Shown here: positions 26,591 through 34,698 of the stretch, in pieces | Numbering within the stretch: position 1 is the stretch's first letter | Layout of the letters: every line of letters begins with the position of its first letter | NCBI GenBank assembly: GCA_003225315.1 | Contig: QHZD01000023.1 | Span: 1-64,000 of the forward strand | Length of the DNA stretch: 64,000 bases | Source: Acidobacteriota bacterium | GTDB lineage: Bacteria; Acidobacteriota; Terriglobia; Acidiferrales; UBA7541 | Direction of reading: 5' to 3' | Position numbers and translations under genes: made by a program | The notes under the pieces: model-generated | What the model saw: only the letters and a program-made list of their open reading frames with translations | Told to the model about the DNA's origin: nothing | Databases searched by the model: none

Positions 26591-27613
26591 CTATTTTTCC
26601 GAAAGAAGCAGCTGCTGGGGCGAGTCTGGAATCGAATGCTGTGTCGTTTTCACGAAGCCGGCATTCGCAAACATTTTCTCATATTGCGAGAAGGTGTAAG
26701 CATCGCCCGAATCCGTTCCTGCCAGCATGATGAGGCTGAAAGCCGCGGCCGTCGGCGGCGTAACGCCATCTTCATCGGGGACAAACTCAAGTGTGATTGC
26801 TTTGCCGCCAGGTTTTAGCGCGTCATGAACGCGGCGCATCAGCTTTTCGCAAGTTGGCACGTCGAAGTGGTGAAAGATGTTTGTCAGCAGCGCGATGTCG
26901 TAACCTTCGCCGAGGTCCGCTTCAAACGCGCTCCCGGGCTGGAAGGCGACGCGATCGGCTACGCCCGCGGCCGCCGCATTTTCCTTTGCGACTGCCAGGA
27001 CGGGAGCCCAGTCAGCCGCGGTGATGTGCGCGTTCGGATTCTGTATGGCAATGGTGATTCCAAACATCCCGTGTCCCGCGGCGATGTCCAGTACCTTGCA
27101 CGGTTTTCCTTCCTTCGCGCGGGCCAGGTCCGCGATAAACCCGGCCGACACGGTCGTCAGAGGCGACATGGTTCTTGCGAAGGTCACCCAGAGTTCGTCG
27201 TTTGGCTTGGTATTGTCGCCTTGCGCGACTGATGTGCCGCCTTTTCTTACCGATTCCGTCAGCGCGTCGAAATTTCTCTTGTGAGCGGCGCTGACAAGAA
27301 AATCCGCCAGGGTTCCCATATATGCTGGCGAATGCCGGTTGAGAAAAATGGCAGACTCTTGCGAGAGGGAGTAGCGGCCATTGCTCTTAGCCAGAAATCC
27401 ATGGATGGTCAGGTAGTTGCAGAGGATGCGGACGCCGCGTTCCGCAGCACCGGTCTTCGCTGCGAGCAAAGCTGCCGTGTTCGTGCCGTCCGCGATGGCC
27501 GTGAAAATATCCAATTCGATCGCGGTTTTCAGCGCGGCGCTCTGCTGGAAAGCATTGAGAGTGTTGAAAATGTGCTCCGGACTAGGCCGGCTTGTTGCCG
27601 TGGAAGTGGCCAT
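26591..27613 (-). CDS. SAM-dependent O-methyltransferase-like protein with dimerisation domain
   Basis: A 340-aa class I methyltransferase. The ATG at 27613 follows CAGGAGAG at good spacing. Residues about 10-100 form the winged-helix dimerisation domain seen in hydroxyneurosporene, acetylserotonin and polyketide O-methyltransferases ([33 protein letters not shown]). The SAM-binding motif [16 protein letters not shown] is near residue 175, and post-motifs [13 protein letters not shown] and [13 protein letters not shown] follow. The substrate is unknown; these enzymes usually methylate small aromatic or polyketide hydroxyls. It is the promoter-proximal gene of a two-gene unit with the DinB-family gene. 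Confidence 0.87.
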
Positions 27614-27763
27614 GGATGAACTCTCCTGTCGAGTGGGTTCAGAGGCCACAGATTATATACGCGGATTCCCTCAAAACGCATTTTTCCGAAGGCAAGCTAA
27701 TTGCCGGAAAGCGGTCCCCACTGGCATACTCTCTTCTCCCCGCAACAATCAAGAGGGCGACCG

Positions 27764-28495
27764 ATGCAACGCGAATATCACCGCTGGTACTCTCACCGGC
27801 TTGGCATGGAGCTGGGCGTCGTCGTGCACGGGCATTGGGGCGCGCCGCTTCTTGGTTTTCCGACCAGCGCGGGCGACGAGTGGGAACTCGAAGGCCAGAG
27901 CATGATCGGTGCGCTCGCGGACTTCATCGATGCGGGAAGAATCAAGTTCTACAGCATAAATTCGATCAATGGGCATAGCTTTTACAACAAGGGAGCGCAC
28001 CCGTTTAACCGCAGCTACGTCCAGGCGGTTTTCGATTCTTACCTGCGCGAAGAGGTCGTGCCCTTCATCTGGAATAATTGCCAGACGCAGGGCATTGCGA
28101 TCACGACAATGGGCGCATCGTTTGGCGCGTACCACGCCGCGAACAGCCTGTTCAAGCATCCGGATGTGATCAAACGGTGCTTTGCGATGTCAGGCGTCTA
28201 CGACCTGCGGAATTTCATGGACGGCATGTACGACGACAATTTTTACTTCAACAACCCGGTGGATTACCTGTCGAACGCCAGCGATTCCTGGTTCTATCAG
28301 CAGATTGCAAGTTGCGACATTCACCTCAGCACCGGCACGGGGCCGTGGGAGAACAGTGGGCCGACCTACCGCCTATCCGAAGTTCTCTCCGGCAAGGGCA
28401 TCCGCCACTCGCTGGACAACTGGGGCCCGCAGGGCGGCCACGATTGGCCATACTGGAAACACCAGATGTGCGAATACGTTTCGCAGATTTTCTGA
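27764..28495 (+). CDS. Putative esterase (alpha/beta hydrolase)
   Basis: A 243-aa cytoplasmic alpha/beta hydrolase. The ATG at 27764 follows AAGAGGGCGA; an in-frame start 63 bp upstream has no RBS. The nucleophile elbow is MGASFGAYHAAN (GxSxG with Ser in GASFG), and the catalytic His is probably in GPQGGHDWPYWK near the C-terminus. No signal peptide is visible. The protein resembles the uncharacterised COG4947/esterase-D-like group. It converges with the amidoligase cluster, with 28 bp between its stop and that of the aminopeptidase-like gene. Hydrolysis of an ester or activated product of that cluster is a possibility only. Confidence 0.8.
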   Translation: MQREYHRWYSHRLGMELGVVVHGHWGAPLLGFPTSAGDEWELEGQSMIGALADFIDAGRIKFYSINSINGHSFYNKGAHPFNRSYVQAVFDSYLREEVVPFIWNNCQTQGIAITTMGASFGAYHAANSLFKHPDVIKRCFAMSGVYDLRNFMDGMYDDNFYFNNPVDYLSNASDSWFYQQIASCDIHLSTGTGPWENSGPTYRLSEVLSGKGIRHSLDNWGPQGGHDWPYWKHQMCEYVSQIF

Positions 28496-28523
28496 GTCTG
28501 ATTTTGCGTGGAACTAAGGAGTG

Positions 28524-29549
28524 TTAGGCTAGGCCGAGGTGATTGAGCTGGTAGTGGCCTTTTTCGATGACTTGGTCGTCGTCGATCCAAACGTCGCATT
28601 TACGGGTGAGAACGTCAACGTGCGTCTTCGATTTCCAATCAGCGTGGGTCTGGCTGCCGTAGGGATCGCCGAACGCGATGTGCACGCCGGGACATTTTTC
28701 GTCCTGAAGCAGGATTCCGATCATCTTGGACAGGCCAAGGTTGGTGCCGAAAGCGAGTTCGCCCACGCGGTCGCTGTTTTCATCCGTGTGGCAATAATCC
28801 CAAAACTCCCGCTCCAAATCCTTACGGGCGCAGTTGACACCTACGAGCCGCGCGCCTTTGATCTCCAGTGTAAGCGGCGTAGATTGCAGATCACCGTATT
28901 TTCCATTGAAATGATCGCCGGCGGTGGCGTCGCAAACGAAAGTGCCGTCCACGGTTGCAGGTGTGGTGAAAACTTCGCCAGCGGGAAGATTTGACCAGTA
29001 ACGCGGGCTGATGAGCCCACTGGTCTTCACCCAATCGAGGCCGCGGTCGAAATGGGCGGCAATCTTTGTGCCGGCTTCGGTTTTTACCGTGAGCGTTTCG
29101 GCGCGCAGCATGCGTTCGCGCAGGCTGTCGCTCAGGCGGTCCACCAACTTGTAATCCGCGCGCATGCCCTGCTGCATGATCTGTGGCGTGACGCCGACCA
29201 TGTGCGCGTAACGAATTTGGCGGCGCTCCACCACTTTCACGATGGCCATGCGCGCGCCTAGTTCGCCCGGCTGAGGCGTCATGCACATCACACCGACATC
29301 CGCGGTTTCCAAAGCTTCGAGCACCGGCGCGGGCGCGGTATTGATCGGGCGCGGCCCAAAATCTTCCAAGAGCAATCCGGTGTAAGGCGCGTGCCGGTCG
29401 TCCAGCGCGGAGGCGATACTGGCAGCGACGGCGCGGCAGGCTTCATCGGCAATCAGCGCCACATGCTCGCCGGGACGCACACCGAGACACGTTTCCACGG
29501 CATTTCGCGCGCCGGGCATCAAGTCCGTCTGTGGCGAACCAAAGTTCAT
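28524..29549 (-). CDS. M29-like aminopeptidase (leucyl aminopeptidase T-related)
   Basis: A 341-aa protein related to the M29 metallopeptidases (AmpS, AmpT, PepS), somewhat shorter than the usual 400 or so residues. The C-terminal half carries the family pattern ELAFGTNLGLSK, a DEK followed by GVHIAFGDPYG, and HADWKSKTHVDV, which would supply metal ligands. The same fold includes NicX-type dioxygenases, so peptidase activity is not certain. It is the last gene of the minus-strand cluster and 150 nt from the permuted ATP-grasp gene; its own RBS is weak. In context it may trim or recycle a peptide-like product made by the upstream ligases. Confidence 0.75.
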   Translation of the reverse strand: MNFGSPQTDLMPGARNAVETCLGVRPGEHVALIADEACRAVAASIASALDDRHAPYTGLLLEDFGPRPINTAPAPVLEALETADVGVMCMTPQPGELGARMAIVKVVERRQIRYAHMVGVTPQIMQQGMRADYKLVDRLSDSLRERMLRAETLTVKTEAGTKIAAHFDRGLDWVKTSGLISPRYWSNLPAGEVFTTPATVDGTFVCDATAGDHFNGKYGDLQSTPLTLEIKGARLVGVNCARKDLEREFWDYCHTDENSDRVGELAFGTNLGLSKMIGILLQDEKCPGVHIAFGDPYGSQTHADWKSKTHVDVLTRKCDVWIDDDQVIEKGHYQLNHLGLA

Positions 29550-29699
29550 CTTGGTAATTCTACTAGAATGGCCGGATTTTCTGTCTACGGTAAATTACTG
29601 ATACTTCTTTTTTCGAAACTGGCCGATGGGCCGGTCAAAAAACCTGCCTCAAGGGGCGAGCCCGCACCAGAGCGCTTCCTTGCCTAGAAATTTTACCGT

Positions 29700-31097
29700 C
29701 TAGTTGGCCGCAGAGGCTCGCGGGGAAATGCGAAATGCCGGGACTTGGCCGCCGCCGCTGGTTACATTGGCGAGGCTGGTGGCACTGAGGCGGGTGAGAA
29801 AGCCGCAGAGCTTTCCGCGAAACAGGTACGGAGCGAAATCCACGAGCATGTCGCGGTAATCGACCCTGCCGACATCCGCGATGTAAGGAAAAACTTCGCG
29901 CCGGATGGGGATGCGTTCCTGGACGATCCATGCGCCGTTCTTCGCCGAAAGAGCGTTCTCGATCCTCACGTCCCAGTCGGCTTCACTGGTTTCCCAGCCG
30001 AAAGTCACACCGGAACCGCCGTACTCATCGCTGGGTTTCAGCACCAGGTTCTCACGCTCTTTACGGATAAAAGCAAGCAAATCGATGTGCTGGCCGTAGT
30101 GGGCCGTCCCGACGTCCGCAACAACGCGCGTCCAAGGAATATGATTTTCGATGACTGCGCGCTCGCTATGGGAAAAAAGGGCGCCGTTTTGCTCGTCGGT
30201 CAGCACGGCGAAAAACGCTTTTACATGCGGAATCTTGCAGCGAAAGTTATTCGCCACACACACGGCATTCGCCGCGTACGCTTTGACGAGGGCGGAACAC
30301 TCAGCAGGCTTGGCCACAATGTCGTTGATGAGCACGCGGCGGTAGACGAGATCGATCTTCTTGTCCTCAGCGACAAGAGATTTGCCGTCCCACTCGAGCT
30401 GGCGGGGATCGGCAATCAAGGTTGGGATGCCCATTCGCTCGAAGCGTTCCTTGAGGATTTCAAACTCGCTCACGGTTGGAACGTCTTCCCAATCCACAAT
30501 CGCAATCTGCGGCTTCGCGGACGATCCTCCCCAGTCCAGATAGCTCATCACCAGGGCATCAAGGAGCTTGGCGCTGAGAGGATAACTGTGAATTTCATAG
30601 TTCTGCGCAAACTTGCCCATCACCGGGAGTTCGCGGAAAATCTCCGCAAGCGTTTCCGAATAGCCCGCGCCGGCCGGCGATTCGCCATTGTATTCAGCAA
30701 ACTTCAGAGAGTCTGGAAGTAGAAACGCATCCAGCCGCGAGGCCGTGCTCGCCCGTCCGTATCCCGTGGGGATGCGGGCGAGACGCTCCTCTTCCTCCCG
30801 CAGATGCAATTGGGCAAAAAGGTCTTTGTCGTCGAGGGCGGCGCTTGCGATGCGCTCGCCAAGGTCGGCGATCGTTTCCGCGACGGTTCTCACGCGCGTT
30901 TCGTCTTCGGTCGAAAGAAAAAATGGGCGCAGGAATGGACAGTGAACACGGTCGCCAAACGTAAGCCGGGCTTTGCGCATGCGCTTGAACAAATCTTCGG
31001 GGAGGGCGGGCACGCGCAGCAGCGTGGCTTTCAAAATCGCGTGCCATTCTTCCGCCGGGGACGGTGGCAAAGCCGATGGTGTTGGCGCGCTGGTCAT
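29700..31097 (-). CDS. Circularly permuted ATP-grasp-like ligase, unknown substrate
   Basis: A 465-aa protein starting MTSAPTPSALPPS (ATG 31097); an upstream in-frame start would overlap the neighbouring ATP-grasp gene. It has features of glutathionylspermidine-synthase-like, circularly permuted ATP-grasp enzymes: KFAEYNGESPAGAGYSE near residue 145, a nucleotide-binding NLVLKPSDEYGGSGVTFGW near 360, and a C-terminal TRLSATSLANVTSGGG that closes the active site. Such enzymes form amide bonds by an acyl-phosphate route. It lies 16 nt after the ATP-grasp gene and is almost certainly co-transcribed. Substrates are unknown. Short glycine runs at the C-terminus are family-typical, not repeats. Confidence 0.75.
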   Translation of the reverse strand: MTSAPTPSALPPSPAEEWHAILKATLLRVPALPEDLFKRMRKARLTFGDRVHCPFLRPFFLSTEDETRVRTVAETIADLGERIASAALDDKDLFAQLHLREEEERLARIPTGYGRASTASRLDAFLLPDSLKFAEYNGESPAGAGYSETLAEIFRELPVMGKFAQNYEIHSYPLSAKLLDALVMSYLDWGGSSAKPQIAIVDWEDVPTVSEFEILKERFERMGIPTLIADPRQLEWDGKSLVAEDKKIDLVYRRVLINDIVAKPAECSALVKAYAANAVCVANNFRCKIPHVKAFFAVLTDEQNGALFSHSERAVIENHIPWTRVVADVGTAHYGQHIDLLAFIRKERENLVLKPSDEYGGSGVTFGWETSEADWDVRIENALSAKNGAWIVQERIPIRREVFPYIADVGRVDYRDMLVDFAPYLFRGKLCGFLTRLSATSLANVTSGGGQVPAFRISPRASAAN

Positions 31098-31113
31098 TTT
31101 TCCACGATTCTCA

Positions 31114-32139
31114 TTACGATCTCTGCGAGGCACCGGCAGCGGGAGCGGCAGCGCTCTTTTGCCCGGCGGCGACGCTCTTCGGCGCTCCTGTAAGTCCCGC
31201 GGCTGCGCCGATGCCAAGCATCTCTTCCCACCGCGGCCAGGGATTCGAAGCCTTGCCGTTCAGTGCGCGGTCAATCACCAGCCGTGCCATCTTTTCCACC
31301 ACGTGCTCGAAATAAAATTCCGTGATGCGGTCGCGTTCGAAATCCGGCGCGGGATTCAGGAAGTCGATGGCATACGGCACACCATCCTTGACGGCGAACT
31401 CGATAGTGTTCATTTCGTAGCCGAGCGCCTGGTTAATGGTTTGCGCATCCTTCACGATGCGCGCGCCGAGCTCCGGAGTCAGGTACTGGTGGTCGACAAG
31501 GTATTTGCGTTCCTTGGGATCATAGTGAACGGGGACAATGTCCGTCTTGCCAAAGGTAAAACAACGCACGTACTGGGTGAAATCAATGAATTCCTGCAGC
31601 GTCATGCAGTAAGGGGAAGTCTTGTCGTACGCGGCGAGGAGTTCCTCTTTGTTATGCACTTTGTAGACGTGCTTCCAGCCGCCGCCTGAAAAAGGCTTCA
31701 AGATCGCGGGGCGGCCAACGTAATCAAGCAGCCCGTCCCAGTCCACCGGATATTCCAGGTTATGGAGTGACTCGGCAGTGATGTCCACGTCGATGGGATA
31801 ACCCTTCTGCGGAAGGAGCACGGTTTTGGGAATCGCGATGCCGAGTTTGGCGGCCACCGAATAGTTGAAATACTTGTCGTCGGCGGTCCACCAGAACGGA
31901 TTGTTGATAACGTAAGTCCCCTGAAGCACCGCGTGCTTCAGGTAGCCACGATAATATTCGACTTCATGCGAGATACGGTCGACGATGACGCTATAGCGCG
32001 CGCGCTCGCCCATGCGCGTGCCGCCCAGTTTCACAAATTCGGCGGTTACGCCGTCCTTGACGCCGAGCTTCTTCACGCGTTCGATAAACGCTGGAGGAAA
32101 ACTGTATTCTCGTCCGCAGAGTAGGCCAACGGTTTTCAT
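31114..32139 (-). CDS. ATP-grasp domain carboxylate-amine/thiol ligase
   Basis: A 341-aa protein with an N-terminal Rossmann-like preATP-grasp domain (MKTVGLLCGREYSFPPAFIE) and a central ATP-grasp domain. AILKPFSGGGWKHVYKV is the flexible nucleotide-binding loop, MTLQEFIDFTQYVRCF supplies the adenine-side acidic residue, and EFAVKDGVPYAIDFLNPAPD carries the metal-binding acid/Asn pair. The last 35 residues are Ala-rich and disordered-looking. The fold resembles RimK/D-Ala-D-Ala ligase enzymes that join an amino group to a carboxylate. It begins 48 nt downstream of the YbdK-like gene. Substrates are unknown; a gamma-glutamyl compound from the YbdK-like enzyme is the obvious candidate. Confidence 0.82.
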   Translation of the reverse strand: MKTVGLLCGREYSFPPAFIERVKKLGVKDGVTAEFVKLGGTRMGERARYSVIVDRISHEVEYYRGYLKHAVLQGTYVINNPFWWTADDKYFNYSVAAKLGIAIPKTVLLPQKGYPIDVDITAESLHNLEYPVDWDGLLDYVGRPAILKPFSGGGWKHVYKVHNKEELLAAYDKTSPYCMTLQEFIDFTQYVRCFTFGKTDIVPVHYDPKERKYLVDHQYLTPELGARIVKDAQTINQALGYEMNTIEFAVKDGVPYAIDFLNPAPDFERDRITEFYFEHVVEKMARLVIDRALNGKASNPWPRWEEMLGIGAAAGLTGAPKSVAAGQKSAAAPAAGASQRS

Positions 32140-32187
32140 GTTCGTGCTCCTGTAGGGTCGCGCGGAACTACCTCGTCTTCGAGGCCG

Positions 32188-33324
32188 TCAATTCACGGCG
32201 TGTGCTGAAGAAGTGCGCGGTTGGGTGACGCCTCCGCGCGTTTCGGCAACCAAGTGCCGCACCACTGCTTTCAAGTCGCCGGTTTCCTGATAGATGCGCA
32301 ACTGCCGGTCCGCACTGGTGCCTTCGCTCATGATCGTGTGTACGTATTCGACGGCACTGCGGCTGCCTAAGTCATCGACGACGTCATCCACCAATTCCAG
32401 CAATTCGGGAATCAACTGGCGCATGGGCACTTCGGCTTCCTTGCCGAAGTCGATCAGCTTTCCATCGATGCCGTACCGCGCCGCGCGCCATTTGTTCTCT
32501 TCGATAAGCGCGCGCCGGTAGAGCCGCCAACTCACATTGCCCTGGTAGAGGCGATGCAGCTTCACAATGATGGCCTGCGCGAGCGCGGCAATGGCCACAG
32601 CCTCCTCGACTCTCGTTGAAACGTCGAACATGCGGAATTCGAGTGTCCCGAACGTTGGGTGCGGGCGCACGTCCCACCAAATCTTCTTGCCGTTGTCGAT
32701 GCAATTCAGCTTTACGAGGAGGTTCACGAAATTTTCGTAGGCGCTCCACGATTCGAATTGTTCCGGCACCCCGGTCCGTGGAAACCGGCGAAACACCGTG
32801 GTGCGGAAAGATTTCAAACCGGTGTTTCTTCCCATCCAAAACGGCGAACTCGTGGAAAGCGCCAAAAGGTGCGGCAGGAAATAGCGCACCCCGTTCATCA
32901 TGTCGATGGTGGTCTGTTTGTCCGGCATGGCCACGTGGACGTGCATGCCGAAGATCAACAACGACCGCGCCAATTGCCCCATCTCTTCGACGATATGCTG
33001 ATAGCGCTCGCCCGGAGAGATGACCTGGTCGATCCAGCTTGAGAAGGGGTGTGTCCCCGCGGCTGCGACTTGCAGCCCTGCGCGTTCCGCGGCGGCGACG
33101 AGTTCGCCGCGCGTGCGATGCATTTCAATGCGCAGTTCGCTCACGTTCTCGCAGATGCGCGTGCCCGTCTCCACAATGGACTGGTGCAGCTCGTGCTTCA
33201 CCTGCTCTGCGATATCTGGGGAAGCCGCGGAAACGAGCTGGCTTACGTGCGAACGCAACTCGCACGTCGCAGGGTCAATAATCTGGAACTCTTCCTCGAC
33301 GCCGATGGTGAAGTGGTGAGCCAT
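32188..33324 (-). CDS. Carboxylate-amine ligase, YbdK family (glutamate-cysteine ligase GCS2 type)
   Basis: A 378-aa member of the GCS2 (COG2170) glutamine-synthetase-fold ligases. The signature TIGVEEEFQIIDPATCEL stands at the N-terminus (residues 6-23), and MHVHVAMPD and GTLEFRMFDVSTRVEE carry further active-site His, Glu and Arg positions. E. coli YbdK has weak gamma-glutamyl-cysteine ligase activity; other members make gamma-glutamyl or related amides. The ATG follows GAGGG about 9 nt upstream. It is the first gene of a minus-strand cluster with two ATP-grasp-type ligases and an aminopeptidase-like gene, so a multi-step peptide-like small molecule is likely made here. Confidence 0.9.
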   Translation of the reverse strand: MAHHFTIGVEEEFQIIDPATCELRSHVSQLVSAASPDIAEQVKHELHQSIVETGTRICENVSELRIEMHRTRGELVAAAERAGLQVAAAGTHPFSSWIDQVISPGERYQHIVEEMGQLARSLLIFGMHVHVAMPDKQTTIDMMNGVRYFLPHLLALSTSSPFWMGRNTGLKSFRTTVFRRFPRTGVPEQFESWSAYENFVNLLVKLNCIDNGKKIWWDVRPHPTFGTLEFRMFDVSTRVEEAVAIAALAQAIIVKLHRLYQGNVSWRLYRRALIEENKWRAARYGIDGKLIDFGKEAEVPMRQLIPELLELVDDVVDDLGSRSAVEYVHTIMSEGTSADRQLRIYQETGDLKAVVRHLVAETRGGVTQPRTSSAHAVN

Positions 33325-33374
33325 GGATTTGGCCCTCGGGATTTACTGGGTCCTGTTGGGGACTTTGAGCTCGT

Positions 33375-33380
33375 ATCATA
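33375..33380 (-). promoter_or_regulatory. Candidate -10 of the amidoligase cluster
   Basis: On the minus strand this reads TATGAT, 5 of 6 to the sigma70 consensus, about 50 nt before the YbdK-like start. A TTGGTG lies upstream with a spacer near 20 bp, too long for a good -35. The site is offered only as the best visible candidate. Confidence 0.25.
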
Positions 33381-33531
33381 CCGCGACGCGGCGCAAAATA
33401 CACCAATGCCCCGTATGCGGGACCACAATTTGTTTCAAACGGGGAAAGGCGGACAGGAATGTTTGTCCCACTGGAGACTTGTTGGGCTGGAACGTTCCCT
33501 GGTTGACCTCTTAGCCTAAAATGCCCGCGTA

Positions 33532-33837
33532 TTACGCCGCGCCCATCGCTCTGCGCTGCTGGAAGCATTCTCGGCAAAACACCGGCCGCCCCTGTGTGGG
33601 ACGGAAGGGAACCGTAGTCTCCTTCCCGCACTGCGAGCAGTTTGTCTTCGTTTCCGAGCGCATCGGTGAGGCGTGACCGCCTCCACCGCCGCCTTCGGCT
33701 CGCTTAGCCTTGCAGGCCTTGCAACGCTTGGGTTCGTTTTTGAAGCCCTTGTCAGCGAAAAACATCTGTTCGCCGGCAGTAAAAACGAACTCTGCGCCGC
33801 ATTCCGAACACTTCAGCACCTTGTCGTGGTATTCCAT
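33532..33837 (-). CDS. Double zinc-ribbon (CxxC) small protein
   Basis: A 101-aa protein from the ATG at 33837, which follows GGGGAGAG; a longer in-frame start would add 50 residues with no family character. Residues 9-35 hold a zinc-ribbon with CSECG and CKACK (CxxC-x17-CxxC spacing region). After a Gly-rich linker (EGGGGGGHAS) a second pair appears as CSQCG and CRECF. This is the architecture of the CxxC zinc-binding proteins found in many Gram-negative genomes. Their role is unknown; nucleic-acid or protein binding is usual for zinc ribbons. It is monocistronic. Confidence 0.8.
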   Translation of the reverse strand: MEYHDKVLKCSECGAEFVFTAGEQMFFADKGFKNEPKRCKACKAKRAEGGGGGGHASPMRSETKTNCSQCGKETTVPFRPTQGRPVFCRECFQQRRAMGAA

Positions 33838-34082
33838 GAGCCGCTCTCCCCTGGTCCCGTGTGGGGCAGGGGATTGGGCGGACTTTGTACCGTATAGCCT
33901 AGATGCTTGAGGAGACCAGTATCCGGGGGACGCCGGGCGCGGATCCCTTGGGCTGCGGGCACGAAGCTGTGACAACTTCCCAAACACTCTGCCTTACGGG
34001 GGCCTGATTCTCGGAAGTGCGGCGCCGAGCCGCGGCGAAAACGGAAGGGCGATCCCGGTGTTACCGGAACCGCCCAATATCA

Positions 34083-34280
34083 TTAATCCGCTTCCCGCCG
34101 CTGCTTCTTGCGCAGTCGCTTCCGCGAAAGCGCTTCTTTTGCCCGGCGCTTCTCGCCGGGTTTCATGTAGAAGCTGTGCTTCTTGATTTCCTTGATGATG
34201 TCCTCCTGTTGCACCTTGCGCTTAAAACGGCGCAGGGCATTTTCCAGGGATTCACTCTCTTGAATGATGACTTCAGCCAC
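34083..34280 (-). CDS. rpsU: 30S ribosomal protein bS21
   Basis: A 65-aa basic ribosomal protein of the small subunit, located near the 3' end of 16S rRNA and involved in initiation. The start is a GTG at 34280 (VAEVIIQESESLENAL); the frame's upstream ATG would add 28 residues unlike any bS21. The RBS is GGGGGTGA, 10 nt before the GTG. The conserved core ALRRFKRKVQQEDIIKEIKK and the basic C-terminus KRRAKEALSRKRLRKKQRRE are unmistakable, and the length is normal. It is not in the rpsU-dnaG-rpoD arrangement of proteobacteria; it stands alone. A hairpin overlaps its RBS (separate entry). Confidence 0.95.
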   Translation of the reverse strand: MAEVIIQESESLENALRRFKRKVQQEDIIKEIKKHSFYMKPGEKRRAKEALSRKRLRKKQRREAD

Positions 34281-34296
34281 TTTATTAAATTCACCC

Positions 34297-34315
34297 CCAA
34301 TCCGGTTCGGATTGG
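34297..34315 (-). promoter_or_regulatory. Hairpin overlapping the rpsU Shine-Dalgarno
   Basis: A perfect 8-bp inverted repeat CCAATCCG/CGGATTGG with a 3-nt loop lies in the rpsU leader. On the mRNA its 3' arm ends in the first two G of the GGGGGTGA ribosome-binding site (34291-34298). It could hide or present the site, as in feedback control of ribosomal proteins. The hairpin is seen; regulation is inferred. Confidence 0.5.
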
Positions 34316-34698
34316 TATCTTGCGGCGCCTGCCAAAATGACCGGCTCTGCTCTGCTGTGAGCACCGCCCCTGGTACTTATTATCGCATGTCTTGTCCGGT
34401 TAGCGTACGCACCCTGATAGGTAGATGGCTTCTTCTAATCAATTTCGCCCACATAGTCAAGGAATCTTTGCGTTTTTGGCCCGGTGTACGGGTACTGAGT
34501 CTCCCTCATAACCATCCGGGTACCCTATTGACGCAGGCATAACCAAAGGCATTTCCTTGGATTCGTATCGAGCTGCTGTTCGACGGGCCGCCTTCCCTCA
34601 CTGCACCTATGCTCACCGTTTTCGTGGCGCCCTTCTTGTTTTTCCCTCCTTCTATTGTTAGATTGAGCCGCTTCGCTAGCCGCACCGCGGGGGCAGCC
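34316..34698. other. Divergent intergenic region between rpsU and glgC
   Basis: About 380 bp. It must contain the rpsU promoter (minus) and the glgC promoter (plus). A TTGACG at 34528-34533 is a possible glgC -35, but no good -10 is spaced correctly. GGGTAC words recur near 34490 and 34520. No open frame here has coding character; the in-frame extension of glgC to 34609 is not supported. Confidence 0.4.

Follow-up and report, generated by a model that had tools for sequence, protein, structure and literature searches.

Five neighbouring genes for amide ligases and hydrolases, conserved in Acidobacteriota, as a candidate pathway for a small peptide-like metabolite

The locus is located on contig QHZD01000023.1 of an Acidobacteriota bacterium (assembly GCA_003225315.1), of which positions 1 to 64,000 were analyzed; this stretch of 64,000 nt is called the window. 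Five genes were found side by side (Table 1). The initial annotation had described three amide-ligase folds in a row on one strand, followed by an M29-like gene, and this was confirmed by the ORFs, the strands and the gaps, which measure 48 nt between GCS2 and GRASP, 16 nt between GRASP and CPGRASP, and 150 nt between CPGRASP and the M29-like gene. The convergent esterase gene lies 28 nt from the M29-like gene. An ATG was taken as the start of CPGRASP, whose mechanical ORF opens at TTG 31217, while the mechanical ORF of the esterase opens at TTG 27701. All five genes were under purifying selection, with omega values of about 0.02–0.10 against five relatives (25 comparisons, with dS saturated in one of them).

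Table 1. Genes of the cluster in the window and the basis of each assignment
Feature	Position	Strand	Basis
GCS2/YbdK-family carboxylate-amine ligase (GCS2), first gene	32188..33324	(-)	PF04107, NF010039
RimK/LysX-like ATP-grasp ligase (GRASP)	31114..32139	(-)	modelled fold, invariant residues
Circularly permuted ATP-grasp (CPGRASP), glutathione/glutathionylspermidine synthetase fold	29700..31097	(-)	modelled fold, catalytic residues
Short M29-like metallopeptidase	28524..29549	(-)	PF02073
Alpha/beta-hydrolase esterase	27764..28495	(+)	PF00756; convergent with the four (-) genes

The smaller frames of the region were also inspected. The gaps 29550-29699 and 33325-33531 hold 18 interior frames, one of which, on the opposite strand, had a match in one of 12 relatives (E 0.002). 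The ORFs of 30-89 residues that recur around GRASP appeared by eye to be frames opposite larger genes. No precursor of a RiPP (graspetide) was recognized in the gap frames or in the nearby ORFs of 30-89 residues. A zinc-ribbon gene at 33532-33987 was considered as a LysW-like carrier and rejected, given that NF041070 matched it only at E 0.005, below the cut-off, and that it occurs in 6 of 83 loci, all within L036-L043 and at varying distances.

Judged from its sequence, the first protein is a member of the YbdK/GCS2 family, as both curated cut-offs were passed: PF04107 matched with an E value of 6.6e-63 (213.2 bits, Pfam cut-off 21), and NF010039, the model of YbdK-type carboxylate-amine ligases, with 530.9 bits (cut-off 371). 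Its nearest solved structures are YbdK 1r8g (E 4e-54) and the related 1tt4 (2e-53), and the host genome has no other PF04107 match. The second protein, GRASP, matched Pfam only below the cut-offs and scored 33.8 bits with TIGR00768 (RimK family), below the cut-off of 143.4. In its structure model (pLDDT 87), the nearest folds among the matches listed were RimK, ArgX and LysX, with Z scores of 22-23. K148, E247, D259 and N262 are invariant in 33 sequences including that of the window, and the last three are presumably the acidic and asparagine metal residues. The model shows a RimK/LysX-like ATP-grasp fold with such metal residues, outside the curated RimK family.

The third protein, CPGRASP, reached 24 bits with PF14403 (CP_ATPgrasp_2), below the cut-off of 32, and its fold was modelled with a pLDDT of 93. 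The model matched human glutathione synthetase (Foldseek E 1.7e-19) and, among the matches listed, YjfC (Z 30.8) and homoglutathione synthetase (Z 30.5). R121, D123, E135, N137 and K354 are invariant in 26 sequences, window included, and align with R316, D318, E330, N332 and K533 of E. coli GspS, the catalytic residues of that enzyme. The profile alignment with GspS and YgiC had a P value of 3e-4 at low probability, yet the catalytic residues were in register. In human glutathione synthetase, the gamma-glutamyl moiety is bound by R267, E214 and N216. CPGRASP shares both its modelled fold and its catalytic residue set with glutathione/glutathionylspermidine synthetases; the roles of the R-x-D ... 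E-x-N residues follow PMC2845819.

The M29-like protein matched PF02073 at 5.1e-9, above the cut-off, as did all 33 members of its family. M29 peptidases have the metal ligands E, E, H, H and D plus a catalytic Y; E192, E264, H290, Y297, H310 and D312 are invariant in the 33 sequences. The first four of these align with AmpS 1zjc, whereas H310 and D312 lie beyond the AmpS alignment and are supported by their invariance and by the alignment with NicX. Together, PF02073 and the AmpS-type ligand positions identify a predicted M29 peptidase. The M29-like gene was present in 37 of 83 GRASP loci and a second protein family lacking an assignment in 4, and the two were never found together; the same was seen in 20 further loci, hand-picked as odd cases (2 and 2). 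The second family thus replaces the M29-like protein in six loci in all, and on a quick GRASP tree there were four changes between them. It was matched by no Pfam or NCBIfam model, its profile comparison with C26 was not significant, and its reading as a class I GATase was rejected because it rested on a motif (C141, H258, E260; 4 sequences) that the profiles did not support. In a single locus, L131, a C26 peptidase (gamma-glutamyl hydrolase family; PF07722 4e-59) follows GCS2 in place of the M29-like gene. The esterase matched PF00756 (E 6e-11, above the cut-off), and its S119 (GxSxG) and H226 (HDWP) are invariant in 24 sequences including the window.

Conservation of the neighbourhood was analyzed in the 83 GRASP loci, namely the best 80 of 578 relatives plus L032-L034 (from G043, G058 and G044), a sample biased to Acidobacteriota in which many loci stop at contig edges. 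All four partner kinds (esterase, GCS2, permuted ATP-grasp, hydrolase candidate) were found within 8 kb of GRASP in 28 loci; three of them were found in 11, two in 14, one in 8 and none in 22. Nineteen of the 22 partnerless loci fall into one 26-row clade of the quick GRASP tree, which contains records titled Pyrinomonadaceae. In 40 of the 83 loci the esterase is at most 8 kb away from GRASP; convergent in the window, it precedes GRASP on the same strand in many other loci. The initial annotation had placed the esterase beside the set as a neighbour; the location stood, and the bystander status did not, since the esterase belongs to the conserved set. Within the genus, GRASP was found in 30 of 35 genomes (in one, G029, as fragments only), and GCS2, GRASP and CPGRASP lie on one strand in 28 of 29 loci examined; in the exception, L004, no CPGRASP was recognized within the 715 bases before the contig edge. 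An apparent GRASP-CPGRASP fusion in G001 (L025, an 820-residue frame) was not counted, as its frame crosses an ambiguous base at the junction.

Among 297 Acidobacteriota genomes, GRASP was counted in 82, GCS2 in 95 and both in 70. The counts cover matches above 300 bits for GRASP (82 of 95 genomes; the remaining 13 carry a distant family at ~160 bits), above 480 bits for GCS2 (95 of 102 genomes, 98 passing the cut-off) and above 300 bits for the M29-like protein (24 of 50 genomes). GCS2 was present in 70 of the 82 genomes with GRASP, compared with 25 of the 215 without it, an association whose Fisher P values ignore kinship; 23 of the 24 genomes with the M29-like gene also have GRASP. By hand count, GCS2 also occurs in 21 of 26 families containing GRASP. 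In 41 of the 70 genomes the two ligase genes are at most 6 kb apart; contig ends may explain part of the remaining 29, of which 21 belong to one family (f30). In another family (f11, 33 genomes), GCS2 and the M29-like gene occur in the same 15 genomes and in no others; 4 genomes have GRASP alone of the three, and 14 have none. GCS2 is absent from 12 of the 82 GRASP genomes, and in one genome lacking it (G108) a PGM1_C ATP-grasp lies inside the cluster (L119).

All five families were found in a row in the cultured Bryocella elongata DSM 22489 (L109), and parts of the set also in records titled Chloroflexi, Obscuribacterales and Armatimonadetes. In plasmid records, neither GRASP nor the permuted ATP-grasp of L034 was matched; 15 of these records matched CPGRASP at less than 60% identity. 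In other families, and to some extent in other phyla, the genes likewise stay next to one another. The five genes, esterase included, form a conserved unit.

The closest work known to us is the amidoligase survey of Iyer et al. 2009 (Mol Biosyst), which may predict a similar set. Among the matches listed in a PMC literature search, no publication on this gene set was found by title or start of abstract, and it goes unmentioned in the excerpts of PMC2922099 and PMC8939145. The cluster shares with the glutathione/glutathionylspermidine pathway a GCS-superfamily ligase, a GS/GspS-fold ATP-grasp with Arg/Asp/Glu/Asn/Lys, and an amide hydrolase. It differs in its additional RimK/LysX-like ligase and esterase, in the YbdK type of its first enzyme, and in having an M29-like peptidase in place of the Gsp amidase domain. 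E. coli YgiC/YjfC share the fold of CPGRASP over 357-373 residues (rmsd 3.1-3.5), but at 13-15% identity, and CPGRASP is longer and accompanied by GCS2 and a second ATP-grasp. RimK and LysX/ArgX, the nearest folds of GRASP, have only 14-19% identity with it; unlike the LysX/ArgX systems, the cluster has no recognized LysW-type carrier, and GRASP falls below the RimK-family cut-off. The M29-like protein has PF02073 and metal-ligand positions in common with AmpS, but comprises 341 residues (418 in 1zjc) and has a conserved place beside ligases. The fungal E-64 pathway, with the ATP-grasp Cp1B and an amide bond synthetase, also forms amides stepwise and independently of NRPS (abstract of PMC12568646), and Cp1B has the fold of CPGRASP (Foldseek rank 17, Z 25.4); however, E-64 is a fungal protease inhibitor built on epoxysuccinate, and this abstract names no GCS2, RimK-like ligase or M29 protein.

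The cluster is best read as a pathway of stepwise amide ligation with turnover, given the conserved neighbours, the co-occurrence of the ligases, the frequent hydrolase, and the fold and residues of CPGRASP. We consider it fairly probable that the five genes constitute a cytosolic, NRPS-independent pathway that makes and recycles one small peptide-like metabolite, most likely a small peptide or peptidyl-amine, probably gamma-glutamyl. GCS2 would form the first amide, probably a gamma-glutamyl amide; GRASP would extend a free carboxylate by one amino acid, and CPGRASP would cap the peptide with a final amino acid or amine. The M29-like enzyme, replaced elsewhere by the C26-family protein or the second protein family, would cleave the peptide, and the esterase may strip an ester or thioester from the precursor or product.

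As a special case of this explanation, GCS2 and GRASP might build a short acidic peptide to which CPGRASP adds a polyamine, the peptidase reversing the step like Gsp amidase. YjfC, YgiC and GspS are among the folds closest to CPGRASP (Z about 30), YgiC is annotated as a peptide-spermidine ligase, and the counterparts of the five GspS residues are invariant; nevertheless, glutathione synthetases are just as near, and these add an amino acid. We regard this case as somewhat unlikely. Quite unlikely is a role in protein modification, in which the RimK/LysX-like ligase would add residues to a protein or carrier and the M29-like peptidase would trim them: RimK, LysX and ArgX do act on proteins, but no carrier-like gene was recognized among the clustered ORFs of at least 90 residues around GRASP, although a carrier as small as LysW could have escaped notice, and the GCS2 and GS-fold ligases known to us use small-molecule substrates.

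The initial annotation had inferred stepwise synthesis and turnover of a small peptide or thiol-like metabolite; ligation and turnover are supported by linkage, co-occurrence and folds, whereas the thiol part was not supported. For a second low-molecular-weight thiol, GCS2 would yield gamma-Glu-Cys and CPGRASP a glutathione-like tripeptide, with an esterase resembling S-formylglutathione hydrolase, which is a PF00756 enzyme. The GCS2 family does contain glutamate-cysteine ligases, and the fold of CPGRASP is that of eukaryotic glutathione synthetase. However, YbdK-type enzymes are poor cysteine ligases, and no pointer to cysteine was found in the analysis of the locus and its relatives. Moreover, the host has BshC of bacillithiol synthesis, as do 79 of the 82 GRASP genomes (103 of the 215 others). 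The cluster therefore does not stand in for another thiol pathway, and an additional thiol is very unlikely. A compatible-solute dipeptide amide resembling NAGGN seems hardly probable: in the NAGGN operon (asnO, ngg), too, ligases are accompanied by a metallopeptidase, and most layouts examined had no transporter, but a dipeptide needs fewer than three ligases. Lastly, a NicX-like ring-opening dioxygenase in a cluster handling an aromatic amide is highly improbable, since, despite NicX 7cn3 being the best PDB match of the M29-like protein (single-sequence E 8.8e-5; by profile 3.6e-5, slightly above AmpS at 4.5e-4), E264 occupies the position of the histidine in the NicX stretch ISHIGWG (the iron ligands presumably being H265, H318 and D320) with only HxD kept, and the AmpS-type ligands and the PF02073 match are found in 33 of 33 proteins.

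Returning to the stepwise ligation pathway, a bolder proposal, which we hold to be doubtful, is that YbdK-, RimK/LysX- and GspS-type ligases together assemble a dedicated gamma-glutamyl peptidyl-amine in about one quarter of Acidobacteriota. This counterpart of glutathionylspermidine would coexist with bacillithiol and be recycled by a hydrolase whose type varies by lineage. We know of no role assigned to YbdK-type ligases, to short M29-like proteins or to many permuted ATP-grasps; here they share one context, often as a five-gene set. As the cultured B. elongata has all five families, the putative metabolite of these soil bacteria can be sought directly.

The five genes form one unit, and the coordinates and motifs that the initial annotation had assigned to the cluster were found to be correct. 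The intergenic gaps along the set are 48, 16, 150 and 28 nt; the host genome is 4.98 Mb, and the window sits on its contig C20. The presumed rpsU stretch explains part of a DNA block (33988-34608) that is 79-86% conserved among near kin.

Cluster genes (GRASP, GCS2 and CPGRASP are the ligases) and adjoining features in the window
Feature	Coordinates	Strand	Transcription order
Five-gene cluster	27764-33324		
GCS2, YbdK-type carboxylate-amine ligase		minus	1st
GRASP, RimK/LysX-like ATP-grasp		minus	2nd
CPGRASP, circularly permuted ATP-grasp		minus	3rd
Putative short M29-like metallopeptidase		minus	4th
PF00756 esterase		convergent to the four minus-strand genes	
PF00891-type O-methyltransferase, adjoining the esterase	26591-27649	minus	
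Ribosomal protein bS21 (rpsU), assigned by eye	34086-34283 (approximate)	minus	

Within the same genus, GRASP was found in 30 of 35 genomes (one with fragments only), and the three ligases shared one strand in 28 of the 29 loci examined. A scan of named genomes with the GRASP alignment gave at least 578 relatives, and the best 80 (L036-L115) were analyzed together with L032-L034, many of these 83 loci being terminated by contig edges. Within 8 kb of GRASP in this set (best 80 of at least 578, plus three), GCS2 was present at 54 loci, permuted ATP-grasp at 46, the esterase at 40, the M29-like protein at 37 and an unassigned protein, found in its place, at 4; all four partner kinds (esterase, GCS2, permuted ATP-grasp and hydrolase candidate) were present at 28 loci and none at 22. 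When near kin (L036-L043) were removed (n = 75), the corresponding numbers were 46, 38, 34, 30 and 4, with 22 complete and 22 empty loci. Nineteen of the 22 partner-less loci belonged to one 26-row clade of the GRASP tree, the one with Pyrinomonadaceae-titled records. Gene order differs between loci. The window's clade has GCS2-GRASP-CPGRASP-M29 and an esterase that converges on them; Bryocella elongata (L109), for example, has esterase-GRASP-GCS2-M29-CP2, in which CP2 denotes another, second family of permuted ATP-grasps, only remotely related to CPGRASP (probability 74, E 2.8e-5). Chloroflexi-, Obscuribacterales- and Armatimonadetes-titled records held partial sets only (four families in L067, three in L053, two each in L052, L054 and L078).

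Of 297 evenly drawn Acidobacteriota genomes, 82 had GRASP, 95 had GCS2 and 70 had both (Fisher P 8e-34, kinship ignored), and 23 of the 24 genomes with the M29-like protein carried GRASP. A coarser tally by family, made by hand, agreed, GCS2 also occurring in 21 of 26 GRASP-bearing families. Among the 33 genomes of family f11, the same 15 had GCS2 and the M29-like protein, 4 had GRASP alone and 14 had none. However, 12 of the 82 GRASP genomes lacked a GCS2 enzyme and 25 genomes had GCS2 without GRASP, counter to a simple reading. Of the 70 genomes with both, 41 had GRASP and GCS2 no more than 6 kb apart, and family f30 accounted for 21 of the other 29. The cluster is apparently decaying in two genomes of family f24: G197 keeps the M29-like gene with a broken GCS2 and no GRASP match, and G181 has an M29-like fragment with a stop and nothing else.

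The O-methyltransferase was matched in 5 of the 83 loci (best 80 of at least 578, plus L032-L034), and in four of these (L038, L039, L040, L042) it scored ∼500 bits and adjoined the esterase. A second, divergent PF00756 esterase lies upstream of the cluster's own in L102 (8178-9083) and L114 (1365-2456), followed in L114 by a further ATP-grasp (169-1386). A small ORF between GCS2 and CPGRASP in L056, L063, L080 and L089, PilZ-domain-like by eye, hints at c-di-GMP control. In L025, from a fragmented MAG, GRASP and CPGRASP lie in a single 820-residue open frame that has an ambiguous base where the two meet; this is either a fusion or an assembly artefact. A distant GRASP family (∼160 bits, 13 of 297 genomes) adjoined an esterase matching both PF00756 and Enterochelin_N at the two loci fetched (L116:6933-10174, L135:6014-8524), and ATP-grasp plus esterase may be an older pair.

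The best matches of the CPGRASP model (pLDDT 93) were human, yeast and plant glutathione/homoglutathione synthetases (E 1e-19 to 1e-15), together with YjfC, YgiC and GspS (Z ∼30) and the E-64 ligase Cp1B. Its R121, D123, E135, N137 and K354 do not vary across 26 sequences and correspond to R316, D318, E330, N332 and K533 of GspS in a profile alignment that is weak overall; in glutathione synthetases, the equivalent Arg, Asp and Glu residues bind substrate and magnesium (PMC2845819). Judging from the model, CPGRASP might add an amino acid, like glutathione synthetase, or an amine, like YgiC and GspS, in the last step, the fold fitting both. The GRASP model (pLDDT 87) was nearest to RimK, ArgX and LysX (Z 22-23), followed by D-Ala ligases (Z 20-21), and the GCS2 enzyme exceeded the NF010039 cut-off.

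For the M29-like protein, the dioxygenase NicX was the best match by sequence and profile alike; nevertheless, a metallopeptidase appears the better reading, because the ligand positions of the aminopeptidase AmpS are invariant in 33 sequences. The unassigned protein replaces it in L034, L045, L048 and L083 and in the second-batch loci L119 and L130, at the exact M29-like position of the window's clade in L045 and L048. The two were never present together, either in the 83 loci (best 80 of at least 578, plus three) or in 20 further loci, and the GRASP tree, made by a quick method and with a very long L034 branch, requires four changes between them. The unassigned protein has Cys, His and Glu as in class I amidotransferases, an identity to which profile comparisons gave no support. 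In L131, a single case, the gene next after GCS2 encodes a peptidase of the gamma-glutamyl hydrolase family C26 (PF07722, 4e-59); gamma-glutamyl bonds are proposed on account of this case and the GCS2 family itself. In L119 (genome G108, without GCS2), a PGM1_C ATP-grasp lies inside the cluster, as though the first place had been taken over by another ligase.

Taken as a pathway, the three ATP-dependent ligases would probably make a short peptide or peptidyl-amine, the peptidase would reverse the ligation, and the esterase, which retains its Ser and His, would act on the precursor or the product in an ester or thioester form. NRPS-independent peptide ligation is of an already known kind; the grouping of these three ligases with an esterase and a hydrolase that can be exchanged was not found among the papers listed in a limited literature search. 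Iyer et al. 2009 reportedly surveyed such gene neighbourhoods, and this set may be included. The thiol-like product suggested initially is not indicated, because the host and 79 of the 82 GRASP genomes have the bacillithiol-synthesis protein BshC. Among 42 layouts viewed by eye, the only recurring transporter recognised was encoded by the ORF that follows a LuxR regulator gene in L064 (where Pfam confirms the regulator), L074 and L109; an internal metabolite is therefore likelier than a secreted one.
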